A stretch of 61,506 nucleotides of DNA from IMG/VR virus record IMGVR_UViG_3300025570_000016, positions 1-61,506 of that record. The stretch is one strand, 5' to 3'. The DNA is from a virus. The notes under the pieces are model-generated. The model saw nothing but the letters and a program-made list of their open reading frames with translations, was not told the origin of the DNA and did no database searches. The first letter of the stretch is position 1, and each line of letters opens with the position of its first letter. Below are positions 16,630 to 50,468 of this stretch, piece by piece. The position numbers and the translations under genes were made by a program.

Positions 16630-16637
16630 TATCTTTG
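16630..16637 (+). promoter_or_regulatory. Promoter -7 element for groEL-phoH-groES
   Basis: TATCTTTG lies 22 bases before the chosen groEL ATG and is followed by the late leader AAATCAAATCAAAT. The -33 region is only TTTA-like. Confidence 0.65.
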
Positions 16638-16659
16638 TGTGAAATCAAATCAAATAACA

Positions 16660-18270
16660 ATGAATCAAACAGGATACACTCCGAAAGATTTACACTTCGA
16701 TAAGGAAGGTAGAGAAAAACTATTCAGCGGTTTAGATAAAATTGCTACCGCTGTGAAGAGCACACTTGGTCCTCAAGGTAACACGGTGCTTATTGAATCA
16801 CAAGAACATACTCATGGGATGACTGTCACCAAGGATGGTGTAACTGTAGCGAAGTCAATTGCTTTGCTTGACCCTGTGGAGAATCTAGCAGTCAGAATCA
16901 TGAAGGAGGCTTCGGAGAAGACTGCTGTATCTGCGGGTGATGGAACGACTACAGCTATTGTTCTATCTGAGGCTTTGGTAAACGCAGGTGTTTTATGCAT
17001 TGATGAAGATAATAATAAAACTGCTGTTTTCAGGGAGCTAGTTAAAGCAACTAGTCATGTTGTGGACAAGTTAAAGAAAATGAGTAAGCCTGTTACTGAT
17101 AAGAAGCTAGCTAGTGTAGCTACTATATCGGCTAACAATGACCCTGCGGTTGGTAAGATTATTGCTGACGTGTATAAGGAGGTTGGTTCAAATGGTATCG
17201 TTACCGTTGAGCGCAGTCAAACTGCTCAGACCTACTACGAGACTACTAAGGGTATTAAGGTTGACAGGGGCTATACCTCTAACTTATTCATTAACAATCA
17301 CAAGAAGGACGAGTGCATACTCGAGGATACTTATGTCTTGGTTAGTGACGCTGAGATAAGTAACGTGCTACAGATTGAGAATGTTCTCAAGCCTATCATT
17401 ACTAACAACAGCAAGCTGCTTATTATTGCGCCATGCTCTACTAATGTGGTAAACACGTTGGCCGCTAACGTAATGAAGAACGGCTTAAAGATATGCGTGA
17501 TACAGCCGCCGAACTTTGGCTACAAGCAGCACGAGCTGATGAATGATATTGCATTGTCTGTTGGGGCTACCTACTACAGTGAGAAGACGGGTGATGACCT
17601 GAGCTTAATTACCGCGGATGACTTGGGTAAAGCCAAGAAGGTTATCGTGGGTAGAAACCAAACAATTGTCATCAAGGATGATGAGGTGGTGTCAGAAGAA
17701 TCTATACAGGAGCGTGTAGAGCAATTACAGGACGCTCACGAGCTTTCAATGAGTAAGGATGAGAAAGAGTTCATTCTGTCTAGGATAGCGTCTCTAACGG
17801 GCGGAATCGGCGTTATATACGTAGGTGGTAACACTGACCTAGAGCAGAAGGAGTTGCATGACCGTGTTGACGATGCTGTATGCGCAGTTCGCTCAGCTAC
17901 CGTCGAGGGTATACTACCGGGAGCGGGTATGTCTTTAGCTTACATTGCCGAGAACATCGAACTGAATCATGAGTGGGGTGCTGACAAGTTCTCTGCCTAT
18001 GAGATGCTTAAGATAGCTTTAAAAGCTCCTGCACAAACAATTCTTGAGAACGCGGGTCTTAGTTACTATGAAATGTATAGTGAGGATAAACCGAAAAAGG
18101 GGTACGGGTATGACGTTAAAAATGGCAAGCACGGTAACCTAATGAGCATGGGCGTTATTGACCCAATGAAGGTTACTAAGAGTGCGCTTCAAAATGCTGT
18201 GTCAGTAGCTGTCACACTTCTCAGCACCAACGCTATTGTGACAATGGCACGTAGCTATGAGACCAAGTAA
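16660..18270 (+). CDS. groEL: Phage-encoded chaperonin GroEL (Hsp60)
   Basis: The 536-residue protein covers all three GroEL domains: LGPQGN (36-41), the nucleotide-binding GDGTTT (93-98), intermediate and apical domains, then RVDDAV (equivalent to RVEDAL with the catalytic Asp) and GILPGAGMSLAYIA. The C-terminal Gly-Gly-Met tail is absent. It folds proteins in an ATP-driven double ring with GroES. ATG 16660 is chosen over GTG 16639, which almost abuts the -7 element. The stop overlaps the phoH ATG. Few phages carry groEL; here it probably folds capsid or ejection proteins. Confidence 0.96.
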   Translation: MNQTGYTPKDLHFDKEGREKLFSGLDKIATAVKSTLGPQGNTVLIESQEHTHGMTVTKDGVTVAKSIALLDPVENLAVRIMKEASEKTAVSAGDGTTTAIVLSEALVNAGVLCIDEDNNKTAVFRELVKATSHVVDKLKKMSKPVTDKKLASVATISANNDPAVGKIIADVYKEVGSNGIVTVERSQTAQTYYETTKGIKVDRGYTSNLFINNHKKDECILEDTYVLVSDAEISNVLQIENVLKPIITNNSKLLIIAPCSTNVVNTLAANVMKNGLKICVIQPPNFGYKQHELMNDIALSVGATYYSEKTGDDLSLITADDLGKAKKVIVGRNQTIVIKDDEVVSEESIQERVEQLQDAHELSMSKDEKEFILSRIASLTGGIGVIYVGGNTDLEQKELHDRVDDAVCAVRSATVEGILPGAGMSLAYIAENIELNHEWGADKFSAYEMLKIALKAPAQTILENAGLSYYEMYSEDKPKKGYGYDVKNGKHGNLMSMGVIDPMKVTKSALQNAVSVAVTLLSTNAIVTMARSYETK

Positions 18271-33786: not shown

Positions 33787-34539
33787 ATGAAAAAAACAGT
33801 AGAGTACGTAGACAAGCAGTATAAGTTATTAGGTAGCAGTGTACCATTATCATTTATGCTCGCATCAAGAAACACAAGAAGATTTCCATTGCTATGGTTT
33901 GATGAGGAGAAAGGTGAGAACAGAGCCCTTCGATACGCAAGAAACCAAAAGAGTCCGTTTGAGGATGAGCAAGATGGGAATGCAATATTAGAGCCTATCA
34001 TATTCGATGACGGCTTCCTTACAGTTCCAAAAACAAATCAGGTATTACAGAAGTTCTTAGAGATACACCCGTCTAATGGTGTTAAGTACGCTACCATTGA
34101 TAAAGCTAAAGAGGCTAAGGAGATAGTAGAAGACCTTAACGTAGAGGTTGACGCATTGATTGCAGCTCGCGAGCTTTCAATAGAGCAGATAGAGGCTGTA
34201 ACCCGTGTAGCTTTTGGTACAGACCCAAGCAATATCACATCGGCAGAACTTAGAAGGGATATACTTTTATTCGCTAAGCAGGACCCGCACGCATTCTTAG
34301 CGGTTGTAGGAGATGCTTCTCTTCAGATTGACTCCAAGGTTCAGTCGTTCTTTGATAAGAGCGTGTTGACGTTTAGAAACAATAAGAAGGAGGTATTCTT
34401 TAATACACCAAGCAACAAGAAGCGTATGCTGACAATACCTTTCGGTGAGGACCCGTTGTATGTGGTATCATCATATTTACAGAGCGATGAGGGGCTTGAT
34501 GTCCTTGAGTTCTTAGAGAAGGTCGCAGAGACCAAGTAG
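33787..34539 (+). CDS. Unknown virion or assembly protein, 250 aa
   Basis: The 250-residue protein is mixed alpha/beta: an N-terminal domain with SFMLASRNTRRFPLLWFDEEKG, a helical middle (AKEAKEIVEDLNVEVDALI) and a C-terminal KRMLTIPFGEDPLYVVSSYL. It directly follows the capsid gene, has the leader AAATTCAAATG and ends at a terminator. A head-completion role is likely by position only. Confidence 0.6.
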   Translation: MKKTVEYVDKQYKLLGSSVPLSFMLASRNTRRFPLLWFDEEKGENRALRYARNQKSPFEDEQDGNAILEPIIFDDGFLTVPKTNQVLQKFLEIHPSNGVKYATIDKAKEAKEIVEDLNVEVDALIAARELSIEQIEAVTRVAFGTDPSNITSAELRRDILLFAKQDPHAFLAVVGDASLQIDSKVQSFFDKSVLTFRNNKKEVFFNTPSNKKRMLTIPFGEDPLYVVSSYLQSDEGLDVLEFLEKVAETK

Positions 34540-34546
34540 TAAAAGA

Positions 34547-34573
34547 GGAGGCAGAAATGCTTCCTTTTTTTTT
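34547..34573 (+). terminator. Rho-independent terminator
   Basis: Seven pairs GGAGGCA/TGCTTCC with a GAAA loop (34547-34564) are followed by a run of nine T. The next promoter begins at once. Confidence 0.9.
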
Positions 34574-34575
34574 GC

Positions 34576-34583
34576 TATCTTTG
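34576..34583 (+). promoter_or_regulatory. Promoter -7 element for the paralogue array
   Basis: TATCTTTG directly follows the terminator T-run and precedes six small paralogous genes. Confidence 0.65.
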
Positions 34584-34617: not shown

Positions 34618-34899
34618 ATGGCAAAATTCTTAACATTTAACAACTCAGGTCAGAGTTTTCTACTCCCTGCTGATGGTTTTATTATGGCTAAAAAATTTGA
34701 TGCTACATCAACAATCTTGTACTACATCTCGGCAAACGACAAGGAACAAATAAGGCTCACACACGCGTCTCAGTCAGGTCATGAAATAGCTGACTTTATT
34801 CAAGACCAATTTATTAACTTAGCTCAAACGAATTGGAGAAATGCGGTTGTAAACATTACATCTTCATCTCCACTAACCTTAGTTGCAGAAATACGATGA
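34618..34899 (+). CDS. Small paralogue, family A copy 1 (93 aa)
   Basis: It begins MAKFLTFNNSGQSFLLPADGF and contains QIRLTHA, IADFIQDQFINLAQTNWRNAVVNIT. Copies 2 and 3 lie at 35192 and 35797, alternating with family B. The same core (initial MAK-F/Y-L strand, then an LTH-like strand and an amphipathic helix) appears split in the large tail proteins at 36397 and 38219. Probably a small virion oligomerisation unit, perhaps decoration or fibre base; function inferred. Confidence 0.7.
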   Translation: MAKFLTFNNSGQSFLLPADGFIMAKKFDATSTILYYISANDKEQIRLTHASQSGHEIADFIQDQFINLAQTNWRNAVVNITSSSPLTLVAEIR

Positions 34900-35189
34900 A
34901 AAAGTTTTTAAAAATATACAACGACTCAGAGTCAAGGTATGTAGCTATTAATGCTGACGAAGTTAATTTTCTTTTAAGTACATCTACAACTTTAGAGTTT
35001 TTTTACAGCGTAACAGATGATTTTAAAAATAATGTAAATGTAAATTATGGTTCAGTTAATGATGAAACCAAAAGAGAGATTAAAAACGTCGTTATAACGG
35101 CATTTCAAAAATTAATGTGTAAGTCTTACTCTAAAGCAACAATAGATGTAAAGCTACCTGCAACTGTAACATCAATAGTAATACAATAA
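34896..35189 (+). CDS. Small paralogue, family B copy 1 (97 aa)
   Basis: It begins MKKFLKIYNDSESRYVAINA and ends with SYSKATIDVKLPATVTSIVI. I chose the internal ATG 34896, which matches the start of the two other B copies and overlaps the A copy by four bases. B shares a distant overall plan with A (KFL strand, Tyr/Val strand, terminal beta strand). Confidence 0.7.
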   Translation: MKKFLKIYNDSESRYVAINADEVNFLLSTSTTLEFFYSVTDDFKNNVNVNYGSVNDETKREIKNVVITAFQKLMCKSYSKATIDVKLPATVTSIVIQ

Positions 35190-35191
35190 TT

Positions 35192-35494
35192 ATGGCAAAA
35201 TTTTTAACAATAGATACAGGTGTTGAAGGGAAGTTTTTAATCCCTGCAGATGGTTTTGTTTTTAGTAGAAAAGAATCAGACATAAAGACATACATTTTTC
35301 TTAAAAACAACAATGTTCGTGATACTTTGGTTCTTACATACGATTCTGTAAGTGGTTTTGATGAAAACGCTTTAACTAAGTTTATTCAAGACGAGATGGT
35401 GGAGTTAGCTCAAACTCATTGGACTAATGCTGTTGTAGACATTACAGATAGAATACCTAAGCCTTATAATATAACAAACGTATCAATATTATAA
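35192..35494 (+). CDS. Small paralogue, family A copy 2 (100 aa)
   Basis: It starts MAKFLTIDTGVEGKFLIPADGF and has FIQDEMVELAQTHWTNAVVDIT, clearly homologous to copies at 34618 and 35797. It has diverged strongly at DNA level, so the duplication is old and maintained by selection. Confidence 0.7.
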   Translation: MAKFLTIDTGVEGKFLIPADGFVFSRKESDIKTYIFLKNNNVRDTLVLTYDSVSGFDENALTKFIQDEMVELAQTHWTNAVVDITDRIPKPYNITNVSIL

Positions 35495-35496
35495 TT

Positions 35497-35793
35497 ATGA
35501 AGAAGTTTTTAAATATATACAACGACGCTGATGATATGTACGTTTTGTGTAATGTATCAGACATTAAGTTTGTAACTGTTAGTGCTCTTAACCCAACAAC
35601 TGAAACGCAATTGTTTTACAACTTAAAGGACTCAACCACCGACCAAATAATAATAACACATGCTGTTGACTCTTTAGGTTTGAATAGGAACGCTATTGTA
35701 GCCGCTATAAAGGAAGTGTCAAGTAAGGGTTATACTAAATCTTTTATTGAGGTTAAACTACCGATAGCGGTAACACAAATAACAAACGGATAA
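35497..35793 (+). CDS. Small paralogue, family B copy 2 (98 aa)
   Basis: It starts MKKFLNIYNDADDMYVLCNV and ends GYTKSFIEVKLPIAVTQI, matching B copies at 34896 and 36090. It sits two bases after the A copy 2 stop. Confidence 0.7.
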   Translation: MKKFLNIYNDADDMYVLCNVSDIKFVTVSALNPTTETQLFYNLKDSTTDQIIITHAVDSLGLNRNAIVAAIKEVSSKGYTKSFIEVKLPIAVTQITNG

Positions 35794-35796
35794 GAC

Positions 35797-36087
35797 ATGG
35801 CAAAATTTTTAACAGTAACAGTAAGTGGTGCAGATTACATAATTCCTCAGAATGGTTTTGTTGCAGTTTCGCAAGAGCCAACTGATAACACTAGAACAAA
35901 TGTAAACTATGTTTCAGCAAACATTAGCGACCAAATTCTATTGTATCATTCGGCAGACGCAGGGAAACTTGTTCAGGATTTTTTAAAAGAAAAGTTTAAA
36001 GAGATGGCAGAAACAAATTGGACGAATGCAATAATTGACATTACCGATGACTGCCCTTTAAGTATAACATCTGTAACAATAGTTTAG
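35797..36087 (+). CDS. Small paralogue, family A copy 3 (96 aa)
   Basis: It starts MAKFLTVTVSGADYIIPQNGF and contains FLKEKFKEMAETNWTNAIIDIT. Third A member of the alternating array. Confidence 0.7.
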   Translation: MAKFLTVTVSGADYIIPQNGFVAVSQEPTDNTRTNVNYVSANISDQILLYHSADAGKLVQDFLKEKFKEMAETNWTNAIIDITDDCPLSITSVTIV

Positions 36088-36089
36088 AT

Positions 36090-36386
36090 ATGGAAAAGTT
36101 TTTAGAAATATACAATGACGCTGATGGTAAATACGTTTTAGTTTCAGCAAATAGAATTAAGTTTGTAGCTAAAGAAACAGGTAGCACTGTTAATACTTGG
36201 ATATATTATAACGCTCAAAGCACGGATGAAGATATTGTTCAGGTAGAAACAGCAGTAACCTCTTCAGGTTATGAAGTACAAAACGAAATTATAGATGCTA
36301 TTGCTAAAATTGCAAGCGAGGATTATACCAAGTCTTCTTTAAAGTTAAAACTATCTTTAGAGGTAGCTAGTATTTCAATTATTTAA
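36090..36386 (+). CDS. Small paralogue, family B copy 3 (98 aa)
   Basis: It starts MEKFLEIYNDADGKYVLVSA and ends DYTKSSLKLKLSLEVASISI. Last member of the ABABAB array; the next gene begins with an A-like segment and carries large inserts. Confidence 0.7.
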   Translation: MEKFLEIYNDADGKYVLVSANRIKFVAKETGSTVNTWIYYNAQSTDEDIVQVETAVTSSGYEVQNEIIDAIAKIASEDYTKSSLKLKLSLEVASISII

Positions 36387-36396
36387 AAAGAATGAA

Positions 36397-38217
36397 ATGG
36401 CAAAATATTTAGGAATACCACTTACAGTTTCTAACGGTAATAGGATACCACTTACAGCTCAGCCCAATAAGGTTGAAAATCCAACTTTTGAAGGCACTCA
36501 GACTCCTAGTGGAGTAAATTTTGTCCTTTCTTCAGGGTGGAGGTTGAATAACTCAGGTGCGGGTGCTGCCGCTTCTTCTTCTGAGTTTACATCTGAAGGA
36601 GCTAAAATTGAATGGCCTGCGGCTAACCCTCCTTCATCAACTTATTTAAGAGCTTGGAACGTAAGCTCTGCCTCAAATTTAATTGTGTTTACAAAAGGAA
36701 AAGCGTATAAGATGACTTATACTATTAGCTCCTCTAACAATGATTCAGGCTTGAGGCTTGAAAACGGAGCTTCTATTGTTTCTTTAAATACATCCGTTGG
36801 TACTCATGAGATTAACTTTATAGCTGATATTGATATATTTACAATAATACGTAATAACAATGTTAACTCAGGAGCTACAATAGTGGTTAGTTCTGTTTAC
36901 GTAAAAGAAATAGCCGCAACTGAAACACCTACGTATGGTTCGCCTGAGCTTGTTGAAAACAGTGAGTTTAATAAGGGTAATGTTGATTGGACTTTTTTAG
37001 GGACAAATCCTCCCTCAATTAATAACACTACTGATACTTTAGATTTTACAAACTCCCCGACTACTGCGGCAGCTAAAACTACCAATACAATATTAGAGCA
37101 GGGAAAAAGGTATGTAGCTACAATTGATATAGAATCAATAACTTCAGGAGGATTAGCATTGGTGTATTCTGCAGGAGCGTATTCTCCTACCTTTACATCA
37201 GCAGGCGTTTATAACTATGATTTTGTACAAGACGGAAGTTTAAATCTTGCTAGTTTAGAGTGTTATTCTAGGGATGCTTCAACAACGGCTGTGGTAAACA
37301 GTATAAAAGTAAAAGAAGTTCCTTATGTAATAGGGACTCGTGAGTTTGTTAAGAACGGCGATTTTAAAAATGGGACTACAGGTTGGGCACCATACACAAA
37401 CGCATCTTTAAGTGTGCAAAATAATAAATTAGTTATAGTCCCAACTGTTGCATCTACGTCTAGAGCAACTCAAGGCTTTGACACTGAAATTGGTAAAACT
37501 TATTCAATAACAGCAAGCTTTGAAAACCCTAATTCAAGTACAGTTTTAATTGGATTATCACCAAATGAGAATGGCAGTAGTCCTACTGCTGACCAATCTA
37601 CAGATTCTAGTGGGACTATTAATGTTTTTTATACAGCAACATCTTCAACTACCTATGCCTCATTAAGTAGAAACGCTAATGATACTAATCCTATATATTA
37701 TAGTGATGTTTCAGTAGTAGAAATAGGATACAATTATCTACAGGTAGCTGACGGTGGGTTTAAGAAGTCAGTTAAAGAGGGTGATGTAATTTTCAATACG
37801 TCTACAAACACAGAGGGTGCTGTTAAACAGGTTATAGACAACAACGTACTATTAATGTCTAATAACAACTTCTCAACGGCAGGTGAGTTCTTTAACGTCT
37901 TCGCAGCTAATGGGGATACAAGAGGAAATCAGGTTGTACGAACAGATAAGTACATTATGTCTGAGTACGATGAGAACCCAAGTAATCCTCAGGAGTCGTC
38001 ATTTTGGTACGCAGGTGGTGTGGATGCTGATAAGGTAACCCTTACTCATTTAGTTCCTGCAACGAATACGTTCTTTGTAGCGAATCTAATTGAGGATTAC
38101 ACTCAAAGGTTAAATGCTCAGTCAGCTACAGCAAGCAGGTTAGACATTCCTTTAGACGCATTTAGAGACCACAAGAATAGCGAGGTGCTAGTAACAACTT
38201 CTATAACACTTTCATAG
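36397..38217 (+). CDS. Modular tail surface protein with three jelly-roll inserts (606 aa)
   Basis: The N-terminal MAKYLGIPLTVSNGN resembles family A. Three jelly-roll, carbohydrate-binding-like modules follow (starting near residues 25, 180 and 320, each opening with a (V)ENPTFEG or ELVENSEF or EFVKNGDF type motif and a Trp). The C-terminal 160 residues (YLQVADGGFKKSVKEGDV to the end) contain the VTLTH strand and FVANLIEDYTQRLNAQ helix of family A. It is a likely receptor or glycan-binding tail component. Confidence 0.7.
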   Translation: MAKYLGIPLTVSNGNRIPLTAQPNKVENPTFEGTQTPSGVNFVLSSGWRLNNSGAGAAASSSEFTSEGAKIEWPAANPPSSTYLRAWNVSSASNLIVFTKGKAYKMTYTISSSNNDSGLRLENGASIVSLNTSVGTHEINFIADIDIFTIIRNNNVNSGATIVVSSVYVKEIAATETPTYGSPELVENSEFNKGNVDWTFLGTNPPSINNTTDTLDFTNSPTTAAAKTTNTILEQGKRYVATIDIESITSGGLALVYSAGAYSPTFTSAGVYNYDFVQDGSLNLASLECYSRDASTTAVVNSIKVKEVPYVIGTREFVKNGDFKNGTTGWAPYTNASLSVQNNKLVIVPTVASTSRATQGFDTEIGKTYSITASFENPNSSTVLIGLSPNENGSSPTADQSTDSSGTINVFYTATSSTTYASLSRNANDTNPIYYSDVSVVEIGYNYLQVADGGFKKSVKEGDVIFNTSTNTEGAVKQVIDNNVLLMSNNNFSTAGEFFNVFAANGDTRGNQVVRTDKYIMSEYDENPSNPQESSFWYAGGVDADKVTLTHLVPATNTFFVANLIEDYTQRLNAQSATASRLDIPLDAFRDHKNSEVLVTTSITLS

Positions 38218-38218
38218 T

Positions 38219-39958
38219 ATGGCAAAGTATTTAGGGATACCGTTAACAGTTTCAAATGGGAACAAAGTGCCTCTTACAGCTCAGCCTGAGTTGGTTGACA
38301 CTACTGTTACACAATCTTCAGATTGGTTTGCCGCTGCAACTTCTCCCTCAACAGCATCTATTACATCAGATGGTGGGTTAGTAAATGTAGTTTCGGGAAA
38401 CTTTGCTTATGTTAGAACAAGTGTTAATAGTTTGTTTACAATTGGCAAGTCTTACACTGCAACTGTTCGATTTCAAAGGATAAGTGGTTCAGGCGGGAGC
38501 GTTGGTGTTAGGCAAACAATAGGTTCGCCTTTAGTTATTAAAAATCTTACAGGAGGAATCCAAGAGATTACTTATAATTTTACAGCTTATGTGGATGACC
38601 AACTTTACATTTTAAGAGAAGGTACGGGGGATTATAGTTTTTTAGTATCCTACGTATCCGTCAAAGAAATAGCTGCGACAGAAACACCTACTTATGGTTC
38701 GCCTGAGCTTGTTACGAATGGTGATTTTAATGATGCTAGTGATTGGTCAGGAACAAATTGGACTATAAGTGGTAACGGTAAAGCTGTTCACGCAACTACT
38801 AATACTAATTACCTTATTCAATCAATGGGGTTGGAATCAGGTAAGAAATATGCAATACAGTGGACTGTTGCAGATTACAGTTCAGGTACTTTAGGTATAT
38901 CCGCCTCTAGTGGAACTAAGTCAGGTGATGACGCTGTAAGTGCTAACGGAACTTACAATACCGTTTTAGTAAGCAACGGTACAGCTCTTCAGATTTACGC
39001 TACCGGGGTAACTTCATTATCAAGCGTATCCGTAAAAGAAATTCCTTATGTAATGGGAACTCGTGAGTTTGTTAAGAACGGGGATTTTTCTGATGGCACA
39101 AATGGGTGGGATGCAACTAATGAAGCTGAGCTTAGCATTAGTAGCGGCAGACTAAGGGTGACCTCAAAAACCGCGAATTACGCATACGGGTATCAATATA
39201 TTCATGTAGAGGCGGGTAAAACTTACAGATTTACAGGTGACGTGCATTATGTTTCCGGTGCTGTGGGGTGGTTGATAGTAGATGGTTTTGATGAAAATAA
39301 TGTTTATCACGAATATGGAATAGTAAGTGTAAACAGTTCTACGACCACAAACTCTTTAGATATAACCTTTGTAGCCAAAACAAATTTATTTACAGTTAAA
39401 GGTCAAGTATATGATAACCCCTCCGGTTTAGCGGTTGAAATAGATAACATATCGGTAAAAGAACTTGAGTACAATTATTTACAGGTAGCTGACGGAGGAT
39501 TTACTAAATCGGTTAAAGAGGGTGATGTTGTATTTAATACATCTACAGGAACTGAAGGTGTAGTTAAGGAAGTTATAGACAATAATGTACTATTGATGTC
39601 TAATGATAACTTCTCTACAGCAGATGAGTTTTTTAACGTGTTTGCCGCGAACGGTGATACGAGAGGGAATCAACTTATAAAGACAGACAACTACATAATG
39701 TCTGAGTATGATGAAAATACATCCAACCCACAAGAATCATCGTTTTGGTTTGCGGGAGGGAAGAACTCAGATAAAGTTGTTTTAACGCAACTCAACCCTG
39801 CAACCAACACATTCTTTGTAGCAGGCGTAATTGAAGAATACCTTGAGAGACTTAACAGTCAATCAGCAACAGATAGTAGATTAGATATACCACTTGATGC
39901 GTTCAGAGACCATCAGTACAACGAAATATTAACAACAACAGCTATAACACTTTCATAA
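38219..39958 (+). CDS. Modular tail surface protein, paralogue of the preceding gene (579 aa)
   Basis: It shares the N-terminal 25 residues and the C-terminal 150 with the 606-aa protein; nucleotide identity is still visible there. The three middle jelly-roll modules are much more diverged (PELVDTTVT, PELVTNGDF, TREFVKNGDF openings). The second module is closely similar to one in the 584-aa protein at 47924. This pattern of constant ends and variable middle points to module swapping in host recognition. Confidence 0.7.
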   Translation: MAKYLGIPLTVSNGNKVPLTAQPELVDTTVTQSSDWFAAATSPSTASITSDGGLVNVVSGNFAYVRTSVNSLFTIGKSYTATVRFQRISGSGGSVGVRQTIGSPLVIKNLTGGIQEITYNFTAYVDDQLYILREGTGDYSFLVSYVSVKEIAATETPTYGSPELVTNGDFNDASDWSGTNWTISGNGKAVHATTNTNYLIQSMGLESGKKYAIQWTVADYSSGTLGISASSGTKSGDDAVSANGTYNTVLVSNGTALQIYATGVTSLSSVSVKEIPYVMGTREFVKNGDFSDGTNGWDATNEAELSISSGRLRVTSKTANYAYGYQYIHVEAGKTYRFTGDVHYVSGAVGWLIVDGFDENNVYHEYGIVSVNSSTTTNSLDITFVAKTNLFTVKGQVYDNPSGLAVEIDNISVKELEYNYLQVADGGFTKSVKEGDVVFNTSTGTEGVVKEVIDNNVLLMSNDNFSTADEFFNVFAANGDTRGNQLIKTDNYIMSEYDENTSNPQESSFWFAGGKNSDKVVLTQLNPATNTFFVAGVIEEYLERLNSQSATDSRLDIPLDAFRDHQYNEILTTTAITLS

Positions 39959-39959
39959 A

Positions 39960-41564
39960 ATGGCGAATTATTTAAAACTAAACAAGTCGTACATAGGTAA
40001 CGACTTATTGGAAAACCCTGAGTTTAACATGCTAGGACCTGAAGAGGTGTTAAATGCAGACTTTTCTCAATCTTACCCATCAACAGTTCCTGACATTGAA
40101 GGGGTTATGTTCAACAATTGGACGGTAGAGAATGGATTAGGAGGAAGCTCTTATAGATTAGAGGCTATACCTAACGGGTATAAGCAAACGCTTATTACTT
40201 TACCTACTGCACCCGGTTCTGTGTATCTAACAAGGCTAAAGCAGGACCTTTCATCAGTTCTTGAGGTAGGTAAGGTTTATAAAATTAGCTATGAAATAAA
40301 AGGAAGTAGTAATTACATTTTTTACAATTCTGTAGCTAAACTAACTAGCCAAGATACTTTAACTTCTACACCGAATATAAGTATGGGGGATAACCAAGAA
40401 ACCATTAAGGTTGAGCATGAGTTTGCGGTAACTGACTTATTAGACTCAGGCAACAACCCTGTAACTGTAGGCCAACACATATCGTTTTACATGTCAACAA
40501 ACGCTCAAGTTGGTGATTGGATAGAGGTTACTAACATTACTTTAAAAGAAATAGGACAGGTTGAATATTCTCCTGACCCTTTATTTTCAAGTGCAACCAA
40601 AGACACTTCTGTAAGTGCTTTATCAGGTTGGGGTACTTGGAATACCCCTGTTTCAAATAATGTGATTTCGTCTTCAGGTAAATATGTTCTTGAAATAGTA
40701 ACTAACGGGCCCACGCAAGGTGCTTGGTTATCTTTAGCTGATATACCTGATGGAATGGAGGTTAATATTAAAATAGAAAGTGTAACAGGAGATGTTGGGA
40801 TTCTTCTGTTGGGTGGTGAAAATATTTTTATTCCAACAGAGTCAGGTTTTGTTGACTTTACTTTTGTTAAAAAGTCAAATATTAATTATTTATATTTTGG
40901 AGTCGATGGTGCAGGTACTACAAACTACTACAATATTACAGTTCGACCTACTAATGTGTTTGCTTATGGTTGGCAAAGAAATCCAAATGAGGCTCAAGAA
41001 GGAGTTACCTTTAGTAATAACAACGTGACTATGGCAGGTCAGTTTACTAAAATTAAAGGCCTTTCTAGTTCATACCCTTCAGGAACTGAAGTTTTGTTAA
41101 AGTTTGATGTACTCTCATTTACTGAGGGTGTAAACTTTAGAGTATCTAAAGGTGCGGGTGAAATTGAAATTAAAGATTTAAAACTCGGTGAGAATGAACT
41201 TAGGTATACTACGACAGCATCACAAACAGATGTAATAATTAGCACTAGTAATGATAGCGATGATTACGAAATAACTCTTGATTCTATGTCAGTTCAAGAG
41301 GTTAAAAACCAACCGAAGCTTATCGGGGTTGATAATGTGTCTACAGTAAGCGCACCAACAAACAGTACGGTTGTAATCAACAACGGTCTAACTGATGGGG
41401 CTGACACTATAACTATCACGTATGCAGAGGCTGACGCGAGCTCAACGGTGCAGATGAGGAACTTCTTCCAAGACGCAATCGTAGAGTCTGCTAACGCAAA
41501 TAACACAGGTAAGGTAATTGAGATTAAGTCTCCTGTCCTTATCAACGACATTGTAGCATCTTAA
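39960..41564 (+). CDS. Third modular tail surface protein (534 aa)
   Basis: An A-like start (MANYLKLNKSYIGND) is followed by jelly-roll modules (around 20-200, 200-330, 330-450). The last 80 residues, with DTITITYAEADASSTVQMRN and an FFQDAIVESANA helix, correspond to the family A C-terminal half. It ends the modular trio and is followed by a terminator. Confidence 0.68.
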   Translation: MANYLKLNKSYIGNDLLENPEFNMLGPEEVLNADFSQSYPSTVPDIEGVMFNNWTVENGLGGSSYRLEAIPNGYKQTLITLPTAPGSVYLTRLKQDLSSVLEVGKVYKISYEIKGSSNYIFYNSVAKLTSQDTLTSTPNISMGDNQETIKVEHEFAVTDLLDSGNNPVTVGQHISFYMSTNAQVGDWIEVTNITLKEIGQVEYSPDPLFSSATKDTSVSALSGWGTWNTPVSNNVISSSGKYVLEIVTNGPTQGAWLSLADIPDGMEVNIKIESVTGDVGILLLGGENIFIPTESGFVDFTFVKKSNINYLYFGVDGAGTTNYYNITVRPTNVFAYGWQRNPNEAQEGVTFSNNNVTMAGQFTKIKGLSSSYPSGTEVLLKFDVLSFTEGVNFRVSKGAGEIEIKDLKLGENELRYTTTASQTDVIISTSNDSDDYEITLDSMSVQEVKNQPKLIGVDNVSTVSAPTNSTVVINNGLTDGADTITITYAEADASSTVQMRNFFQDAIVESANANNTGKVIEIKSPVLINDIVAS

Positions 41565-41590
41565 TGTTATAATGTAATAGGTTGAAAGAG

Positions 41591-41617
41591 GAGCTCCATA
41601 GGGGCTCTTTTTTTTTT
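41591..41617 (+). terminator. Rho-independent terminator
   Basis: The stem GAGCTCC/GGGGCTC (one G-T pair) with loop ATA (41591-41607) is followed by ten T (41608-41617). Confidence 0.9.
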
Positions 41618-41620
41618 GCG

Positions 41621-41628
41621 TATATTTG
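41621..41628 (+). promoter_or_regulatory. Promoter -7 element for neck and tail genes
   Basis: TATATTTG lies just after the terminator and 16 bases before ATG 41644. Confidence 0.65.
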
Positions 41629-41643
41629 TGAAAAGATTTAATA

Positions 41644-42340
41644 ATGATAGATTCAGTAAGAAGCACAGTTCTCGCTGTGTTAAATAAGAATAACTACGGG
41701 TATTTATCTCCAATGGATTTTAACCTGTACGCTTAAGCAAGCGCAGCTTGAAATATTCGAGAACTTATTTTACCAATACAATAATCAAATAAACTCAGAG
41801 AACGCTCGTAGGTCAGGTACTGACTATGCTGACATATCAAAAGGAATCCTTGAGGATATAGATTTGTTTAGCAAGGACTCAATTTTAAGCAGTAATTATG
41901 GAGCACATGCATTACCAAGCGATTATTACTTTATAAATAGAATTACAATAAGTATTAGCAATGTTGATGTTGAGGTTGAAAGAGTGTCTCAAGGCAAGAT
42001 TACAGCTTTAAAAATGTCTCCTCTTACAGCCCCAAGCAATGAGTTTCCTGTATACACCCAAGAGGGTAGTATTATAGAAATTACTCCTGATTCGGGGCAA
42101 GCTACCGCAAGATATATTAGATATCCATCTGAGCCTAAGTGGACTTATACCTCCGTTGGTAATAACGTACCTATATTTAATCCAAGTGCGGGGGATTATA
42201 AAGACTTTGAGCTACCCTTTAGCTATCAAAACGAGTTGGTGAATAAGATACTTAAGTACGCAGGAGTTGAGATTCGTGAGACTATGGTAGTTGATTTTGC
42301 TAATAAACAGGAACAACAAAATAATATAGAGCAACAATAA
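41644..42340 (+). CDS. Neck/adaptor-type protein interrupted by a +1 frameshift (231 aa if joined)
   Basis: Frame 1 runs from ATG 41644 for 30 codons (ending MDFNLYA) to TAA at 41734-41736. Skipping the T at 41734 after GCT continues with AAG CAA GCG CAG in another frame to the stop at 42338, giving NLYAKQAQLEIFENLFYQYN, which is a motif of phage neck-region proteins. No start with a leader exists inside the second frame (only TTG 41864). The GCT TAA G context resembles the RF2 +1 shift site. It could be programmed frameshifting or one extra T in the assembly. Confidence 0.7.
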
Positions 42341-49679: not shown

Positions 49680-50468
49680 ATGGCAAATTACACACTAACA
49701 TACAGCGAAGGTTCAAAAGGGTTTCCTTCTTTTTACAGCTACTACCCTGATTACATGATTGGGATGAATAATTATTTTTACACGTTTAAAGGCGGTCAAA
49801 TGTATAGGCATAATACCAACGACATTCATAACAGGTATTATGAAACTACTCATAGTTCAATAATTAAAACTGTAATAAATCAAGCCCCACTACAGAATAA
49901 GCTATTTAAAACAATTAACTTAGAGTCTACTGATGCTTGGATGACTGATATTTTAACTGACGTTAACTCTCAGTTAGGCAAGATACCTTCCGATGAGTTT
50001 GTGAAAAAAGAAGGTAATTACTTTGGCTATGTACGGAATCAAGGGGTGAGTAATACTCAAGCTGTTATATCGAATTCTGATTTAAACTCAAGAACTGTTG
50101 GTGGTTTAGGTGTTCCATACACTCAAAATGCAGGTAGCATGAAGTTTTATCTTTCAGAGACGAGTCTTAGTATTGGGGATTACATATATAGGTATGATAG
50201 TTTTCCCAACTCTCTGATATTTGTAGGTAAGGTTACGAATCTTGTTTATTCAACTCTATCTCCAAATAATACTTCAGTTTTAACCGTTACGCATAACGGA
50301 ACCACCGTTTCTTCCGGCACGTCTATAATGTACGCTAAGGATACCGCGGCTGAGTCAATGGGTGTTATGGGTCATTATGCTGAGGTAACTTTAACACTTC
50401 CAAGTACAGTAACAGGCCCTAGTGAGCTTTTTGCTATTGAATCTGAAACAATGAAAAGCTATCCTTAA
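49680..50468 (+). CDS. Tail-associated structural protein, 262 aa
   Basis: The 262-residue protein has an aromatic N-terminal domain (FPSFYSYYPDYMIGMNNYFY, then a THSSIIKTVINQAPLQNKLFK segment) seen in tail proteins of this phage group, and a beta-rich C-terminus. It follows the fibre gene by one base. Precise role unknown. Confidence 0.65.
   Translation: MANYTLTYSEGSKGFPSFYSYYPDYMIGMNNYFYTFKGGQMYRHNTNDIHNRYYETTHSSIIKTVINQAPLQNKLFKTINLESTDAWMTDILTDVNSQLGKIPSDEFVKKEGNYFGYVRNQGVSNTQAVISNSDLNSRTVGGLGVPYTQNAGSMKFYLSETSLSIGDYIYRYDSFPNSLIFVGKVTNLVYSTLSPNNTSVLTVTHNGTTVSSGTSIMYAKDTAAESMGVMGHYAEVTLTLPSTVTGPSELFAIESETMKSYP

Follow-up and report, generated by a model that had tools for sequence, protein, structure and literature searches.

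Nine consecutive genes of the window (the whole stretch of DNA analysed here, a 61.5-kb IMG/VR virus contig of 61,506 nucleotides) make up one cassette with promoter-like and terminator-like borders of its own, and all nine are of common descent: a single fold of ~95 aa used nine times. Six small genes (A1 to B3) encode the fold in its bare form, and in the three large genes that follow them (L1 to L3; locus numbers, by contrast, have three digits) jelly-roll modules have been inserted after the first strand of the fold. On balance we favour the reading that this accessory cassette encodes an exchangeable set of proteins displayed on the virion surface, either as head decoration or as fibres. 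The coordinates of the cassette and its borders are collected in Table 1.

Table 1. Genes, modules and border elements of the nine-gene cassette and its slot (positions in the window)
Feature	Position	Strand	Details
Upstream anchor gene	33787-34539	+	250 aa; conserved slot border, outside cassette
Terminator-like hairpin, then T-run	34541-34570	+	cassette upstream border; dG -16.2 kcal/mol, z -3.6; kept in relatives
TATCTTTG, Bacteroidota-type -7 promoter-like box (TAnnTTTG)	34576-34583	+	from sequence; kept in relatives
A1	34618-34899	+	93 aa; bare small-fold protein
B1	34896-35189	+	97 aa; bare small-fold protein; ATGA overlap with A1
A2	35192-35494	+	100 aa; bare small-fold protein
B2	35497-35793	+	98 aa; bare small-fold protein
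A3	35797-36087	+	96 aa; bare small-fold protein; structure modelled
B3	36090-36386	+	98 aa; bare small-fold protein
L1	36397-38217	+	606 aa; small fold split after first strand
L1 jelly-roll modules	36460-36921, 36937-37329, 37333-37734	+	
L1 linker module plus base	about 37771 to 38214	+	
L2	38219-39958	+	579 aa; paralogue of L1
L2 modules (three)	38282-38680, 38696-39052, 39056-39475	+	
L3	39960-41564	+	534 aa; small fold interrupted by CBM-like jelly rolls
L3 CBM-like jelly rolls	about 40029-41300	+	base resumes at 41301-41561
Terminator-like hairpin	41584-41614	+	cassette downstream border; dG -17.1 kcal/mol, z -4.7
Promoter-like TATATTTG	41621-41628	+	after downstream hairpin, before ring-like gene
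Downstream ring/connector-like gene	41647-42340	+	conserved slot border; 1-nt frameshift in this record

A sequence-only reading of this DNA had described six small genes that alternate in an ABABAB pattern with spacings of a few bases, and this description holds: there are six ORFs of 93-100 aa, separated by -4, 2, 2, 3 and 2 nt. Any two A proteins share 37-42% identity (shuffle z 16-21) and any two B proteins 32-40% (z 14-18), and between A and B the figure is 16-29%, which is still above shuffles (z 3.3-8.4). Profile-profile comparison aligns A and B end to end (94% probability, E 1.4e-7), and together with the shuffle scores this rules out a chance likeness and upholds the earlier suggestion that the pair itself goes back to an older duplication. 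The six genes do exist as ORFs; as a unit they were drawn too small, since L1 to L3 carry the same domain. The complete array is also found, gene for gene, in two other viruses (L006 and L007), and two loci that are cut by contig ends retain the first pair (L008) or the first gene and a half (L005), so the array is not an accident of one genome; L003, L004 and L009 are further copies of the virus from which the window comes.

The kinship of the large genes with the small ones is clearest for L3, whose C-terminal part is matched by the HMM of the small proteins with an E value of 6.5e-8; for L1 and L2 the HMM matches are weak (E 0.007 and 0.02). Profile comparison with the small fold gives a probability of 98% for L3 and of 94% for L1/L2. 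The small proteins and L1 to L3 have in common a start stretch, M-x-(K/N)-(F/Y)-L, from which it follows that L1 to L3 each contain the small fold, broken after the first strand. The interruption can be seen against arm-free orthologues: L197, L198, L200, L201, L203 and L204 have an L1 of only 180-181 aa, which aligns to residues 1-14 and about 459-606 of the window L1, as well as a bare L3 of 100-101 aa (BLAST E values down to 7e-16, with full match to the family HMM). Other loci have one inserted module (L018 and L019; 305 and 310 aa), two (L013 and L014; 439 and 442 aa) or three (the window, L006 and L011; 562-606 aa). That L1 to L3 might be unrelated neighbours of the array is ruled out by the HMM and profile matches and by the arm-free orthologues.

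Independently of this, a bare gene of 92-93 aa in a large outer group is followed by a copy of 169-177 aa with an insert of ~75 aa at the same point (profile A5 against profile A8, E 2.6e-12). L095 (263-943; also L096 and L099) shows another mode of arming: the bare gene is preceded by one of 226 aa that begins with the small fold and continues into a C-terminal extension. We also note, at the same slot in L061 (2599-3670) and L076 (5844 onward), two genes of ~175 aa with the starts MKFLKIYS/MSFLKIYK, besides one cut copy; they resemble further split forms, with no match to the family HMM.

In a tree of all array copies, A and B each form one clade (support 100/100), and the copies largely group by position across the three viruses, firmly for A3 (97/93), B1 (99/99) and B3 (87/82) and more weakly for A1, A2 and B2, the window A2 not being firmly placed with the other A2s. 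Because orthologues mostly group in this way, both pair duplications are most likely old and would have preceded the divergence of these viruses. The proposed duplication of an AB pair is thus sustained, and the alignment and tree of the six proteins favour it, with the order of the copies weakly supported: the best topology is ((1,2),3) in both A and B, as expected from pair duplication, and a tree that joins A1 to B1 is rejected (AU p 0.0005), but alternative pairings of copies 1, 2 and 3 are not (AU p 0.10 to 0.33), and internal branch support appears too weak to prove that A and B branch congruently. This weakness, and the fact that other pair types clearly pass from phage to phage as units, would suit an origin in which the three AB pairs were imported separately and not duplicated in place. 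We regard such an origin as very unlikely, as a 41-row tree places all A (91/85) and all B (89/97) in clades exclusive of other pair types, which fits local duplication.

The cassette has the capsid genes on one side and a ring/connector-like gene on the other, in a fixed slot. Each of the 79 wider-family loci that were tested occupies this slot (in 73 both flanks are present, and the others are truncated at a contig end), on the same strand and in the same position as the capsid genes. The cassette is dispensable: among 71 complete loci found via the anchor gene, 57 contain no family member by HMM, and 56 of these have a spacer of 80-156 bp instead; in the empty-site relatives L001 and L091 a single hairpin plus box stands between the same two genes. 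Unrelated genes can also fill the site, with six reverse-strand genes in phi18:3 (L093, 9024-10806) and five small genes in Panino (L090, 20000-21103), which gives the slot the look of an accessory-gene hot spot. The TATCTTTG-type box recurs directly upstream of transcription units at 16630, 20405, 24259 and 50476, although the motif TAnnTTTG alone is common by chance. In the ring/connector-like gene, one extra T at 41716-41740 shifts the frame; as it is absent from the 99.7% identical contig L174 and from L011 and L177, the frameshift in this record probably arose in sequencing or assembly.

Cassettes and modules have been exchanged between phages in which the neighbouring protein is 98-100% identical. 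Among the window, L006 and L007, the anchor protein is 99-100% identical and DNA identity is 91-99% up to the start codon of A1; past this codon the window falls to about 60-70% identity with the other two. Within L1, identity is mostly 35-55% for modules 1 and 2 and 91-100% for module 3 together with the base, and module 2 of the window L2 is 86% identical to module 2 of the L1 of L011. A3 of the window and of L007 share 88% DNA identity and B3 71%, the two genes having different closest relatives. In L013 and L014 the first codons of one small gene are fused to the end of a second, the mark of a clean deletion of a small-gene pair. The dN/dS values of the six small genes (0.14-0.63, against 0.04 or less in the anchor gene) are rough, as synonymous sites are partly saturated, and indicate genes that are constrained, and so functional, but fast-changing.

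Partners tend to stay together. A related clade has three other types of small pair (s0+s2, s4+s5 and s6+s7), with the partners matched in 18 of 19 loci, some of them near-identical to one another; L194 is the exception. The same pair types occur with an L1 of 180, 305, 444-454 or 562 aa. Unarmed L1 accompanies unarmed L3 and armed accompanies armed, with an intermediate in L199 (a 252-aa L1 with a bare L3) and no L1 seen in L188. Such matching is what would be expected of an obligate partner, although tight linkage would give the same and the window's A3 and B3 differ in their closest relatives; A:B heterodimers are plausible on the strength of these gene patterns.

A model of the A3 base domain (88 relatives, pLDDT 74) predicts five strands, a helix and two further strands. 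In BFVD it resembles unnamed viral proteins (TM 0.84-0.91) and a 174-aa form (TM 0.76), matches that lend support to the model and give no function. Foldseek against the PDB returned chance-level rows only (kinase and serpin fragments, E of at least 0.3), which does not exclude that the predicted small fold is a known one. Its PH-like structural neighbours (Z 4.8 or less, within the chance range) are too weak for the fold to be named after them. The L3 model consists of consecutive jelly rolls (overall pLDDT 58), with good confidence only in residues 240-450 and low confidence at both ends, so that the case for the L3 base comes from sequence and not from the model. The best structural neighbours of L3 are CBM4 and CBM22 (Z 12.6, rmsd 3.1 over 150 residues, in a stretch of modest confidence); tandem CBM22 is matched with E 8e-9, and the CBA120 tailspike TSP4 is also among the structural matches. 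At the sequence level, there is a weak match to a GH10 CBM chain (E 0.0096), and the inserts of L1 to L3 have no CBM family match in Pfam or NCBIfam. The jelly rolls thus share their predicted fold with the CBM4 and CBM22 modules of polysaccharide-degrading enzymes but differ from them in their low sequence identity and in being inserted into a phage base domain. By this likeness, the CBM-like arms would bind sugar.

The family yielded no informative match in Pfam, NCBIfam, PHROG or the PDB, and none of its hits in Pfam or NCBIfam was significant. Known phage decoration and fibre proteins were rejected as homologues, the PHROG matches being weak and scattered. Among PDB sequences the family profile found no chain below E 0.5, and gp36 of phi-crAss001 was not listed; MCP, the anchor, the ring-like and the 307-aa proteins likewise had no match in PDB sequence searches. 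A search with tblastn of A3 and wider-family members against 50,697 phage records gave no match, one wider-family member, scanned against bacterial and archaeal genomes, had no relative there, and the family is not mentioned in the papers searched on cultured relatives. At least 495 relatives were matched in the IMG/VR scan.

The portal protein is 77% identical to that of a phage from Manatee Spring and 46-49% identical to the portals of the Flavobacterium elemo phage and the Maribacter phage Panino, a podovirus with a ~60-nm head (PMC11590407); the matches span 99% of its length. The window shares with the elemo phages, phi38:1, phi18:3 and Panino the order terminase, portal, MCP, anchor-like and ring-like gene, and by portal and structural gene order its virus appears to be related to the podoviruses of the Pervagoviridae/Pachyviridae/Elemovirus group. 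Unlike the window, elemo and Cellulophaga phi38:1 (Pervagoviridae) have an empty slot with a spacer of about 90 bp, and Cellulophaga phi18:3 (Pachyviridae) and Panino have unrelated small genes there; in the regions of these four that were examined, the HMM found no family member. The homologues of MCP and of the ring-like protein that flank the slot are virion proteins proven by mass spectrometry in phi18:3, and the anchor homologue is annotated there only as hypothetical. Further downstream, at 49680-50468, the window encodes a Pfam crassvirus muzzle C-terminal domain (E 8.7e-11), which links this podovirus group with the tail apparatus of the Crassvirales.

We favour a display set because in all 79 loci tested the slot lies within the structural cluster, because it is flanked by homologues of proven virion proteins, because identity drops from 98% to 60% at the start of the cassette and the modules are mosaic, because insertion is visible against arm-free orthologues and one- and two-module intermediates, because of the dN/dS values, the natural deletions and the matching of partners, because the inserted jelly rolls resemble CBM4 and CBM22, and because phi-crAss001 offers a precedent in a base with an inserted domain and in its head fibres. 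The cassette products would then be located on the virion surface, with the head as the likeliest place. The small fold would serve as a docking base; paired small genes would give hetero-oligomeric decorations, and paired large genes would present sugar-binding arms to the outside, by which the particle could stick to polysaccharide on cells or particles. Recombination that swaps pairs and modules would change what the particle can stick to. Against a display set, the slot also borders connector and tail genes and can hold unrelated genes, as in phi18:3 and Panino; the lack of any match to a known decoration or fibre protein and the low overall confidence of the L3 model count against it as well.

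As the slot directly precedes ring/connector-like genes, the proteins might belong to the neck or tail as collar fibres, an adaptor or receptor-binding proteins, the bare pairs forming a ring or collar to which the armed copies are attached. CBM-like modules do occur in phage tailspikes such as CBA120 TSP4, and fast modular exchange would be typical of receptor-binding proteins; the tail genes, however, lie downstream, where the muzzle domain is encoded, and the cassette is missing from many relatives that have these conserved flanks, so it does not encode an essential receptor-binding protein. We consider a neck or tail location unlikely. Products that act outside the virion, in or on the infected cell (secreted or at the surface, for instance, to block superinfection or to bind host polysaccharide), would agree with a dispensable cassette bordered by promoter-like and terminator-like elements of its own and with the unrelated accessory genes that other phages hold in the slot. 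This is distinctly improbable in our view, because every family locus tested shares its strand and position with the capsid genes, and the proteins seem to begin directly with the first strand of the fold, leaving no room for a signal peptide.

The sequence-only reading had placed three heterodimer variants at distinct symmetry positions of the virion. The conservation of the array order in three viruses and the partner fidelity of the other pairs would agree with three A:B heterodimers at three quasi-equivalent capsid positions, and phi-crAss001 has two different fibres at two types of hexon pocket (PMC10172136). Yet relatives whose anchor protein is up to 98% identical have a single, different pair or no small genes at all (L013 and L014), and since one pair or none suffices in these close relatives, three variants are not an architectural need. 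The different closest relatives of A3 and B3 also mean that pairs 1 to 3 are not evolving as fixed units, and rapid exchange suits a role facing the environment better than distinct symmetry positions. We give this proposal hardly any weight.

For a display set on the head, phi-crAss001 is a working parallel. Its gp36 is an auxiliary capsid protein of 333 aa, with a PH-like base, a FliD/FliC-like insert and nine copies per asymmetric unit, and its head fibres gp21/gp29 bear outward domains and occupy two different hexon pockets (PMC10172136). The cassette, for which a head location is predicted, resembles these accessory head proteins of a Bacteroidota podovirus in having a base with an inserted domain, and the muzzle domain is a further likeness to the Crassvirales. 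Unlike gp36, its base is ~95 aa, bare (proteins of 93-100 aa) or with CBM-like inserts (534-606 aa), repeated nine times and dispensable. We do not claim the cassette proteins as members of the gp36 family, as size and insert differ and no sequence link was found, and a remote relation is conceivable.

Decoration and Ig-like adhesion proteins of the T4 Hoc type are dispensable and modular and carry outward-facing domains on a capsid base. The likeness is one of analogy only, as fold and gene organisation differ and no homology was detected; to our knowledge, a tandem array of matched pairs has not been described for such proteins. Tentatively, the cassette may represent a widespread and undescribed capsid-surface platform, in which a docking fold, in matched pairs and up to nine per genome, acts as a socket for swappable glycan-binding arms. 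Each phage would then gain a head-adhesion phenotype that is combinatorial and does not depend on its tail receptor. The family is present in hundreds of IMG/VR contigs, always at one slot where tested, and the oddity of the ABABAB array is explained as part of a larger modular system. Close relatives provide a natural series of 0 to 3 sugar-binding-like modules and 0 to 3 small pairs, with deletions, that makes the role of head-surface proteins in these phages directly testable.

Elsewhere in the window, 16639-18270 encodes a GroEL-like chaperonin (Pfam Cpn60_TCP1, E 3e-55), which is also present in the Manatee Spring phage and in elemo.
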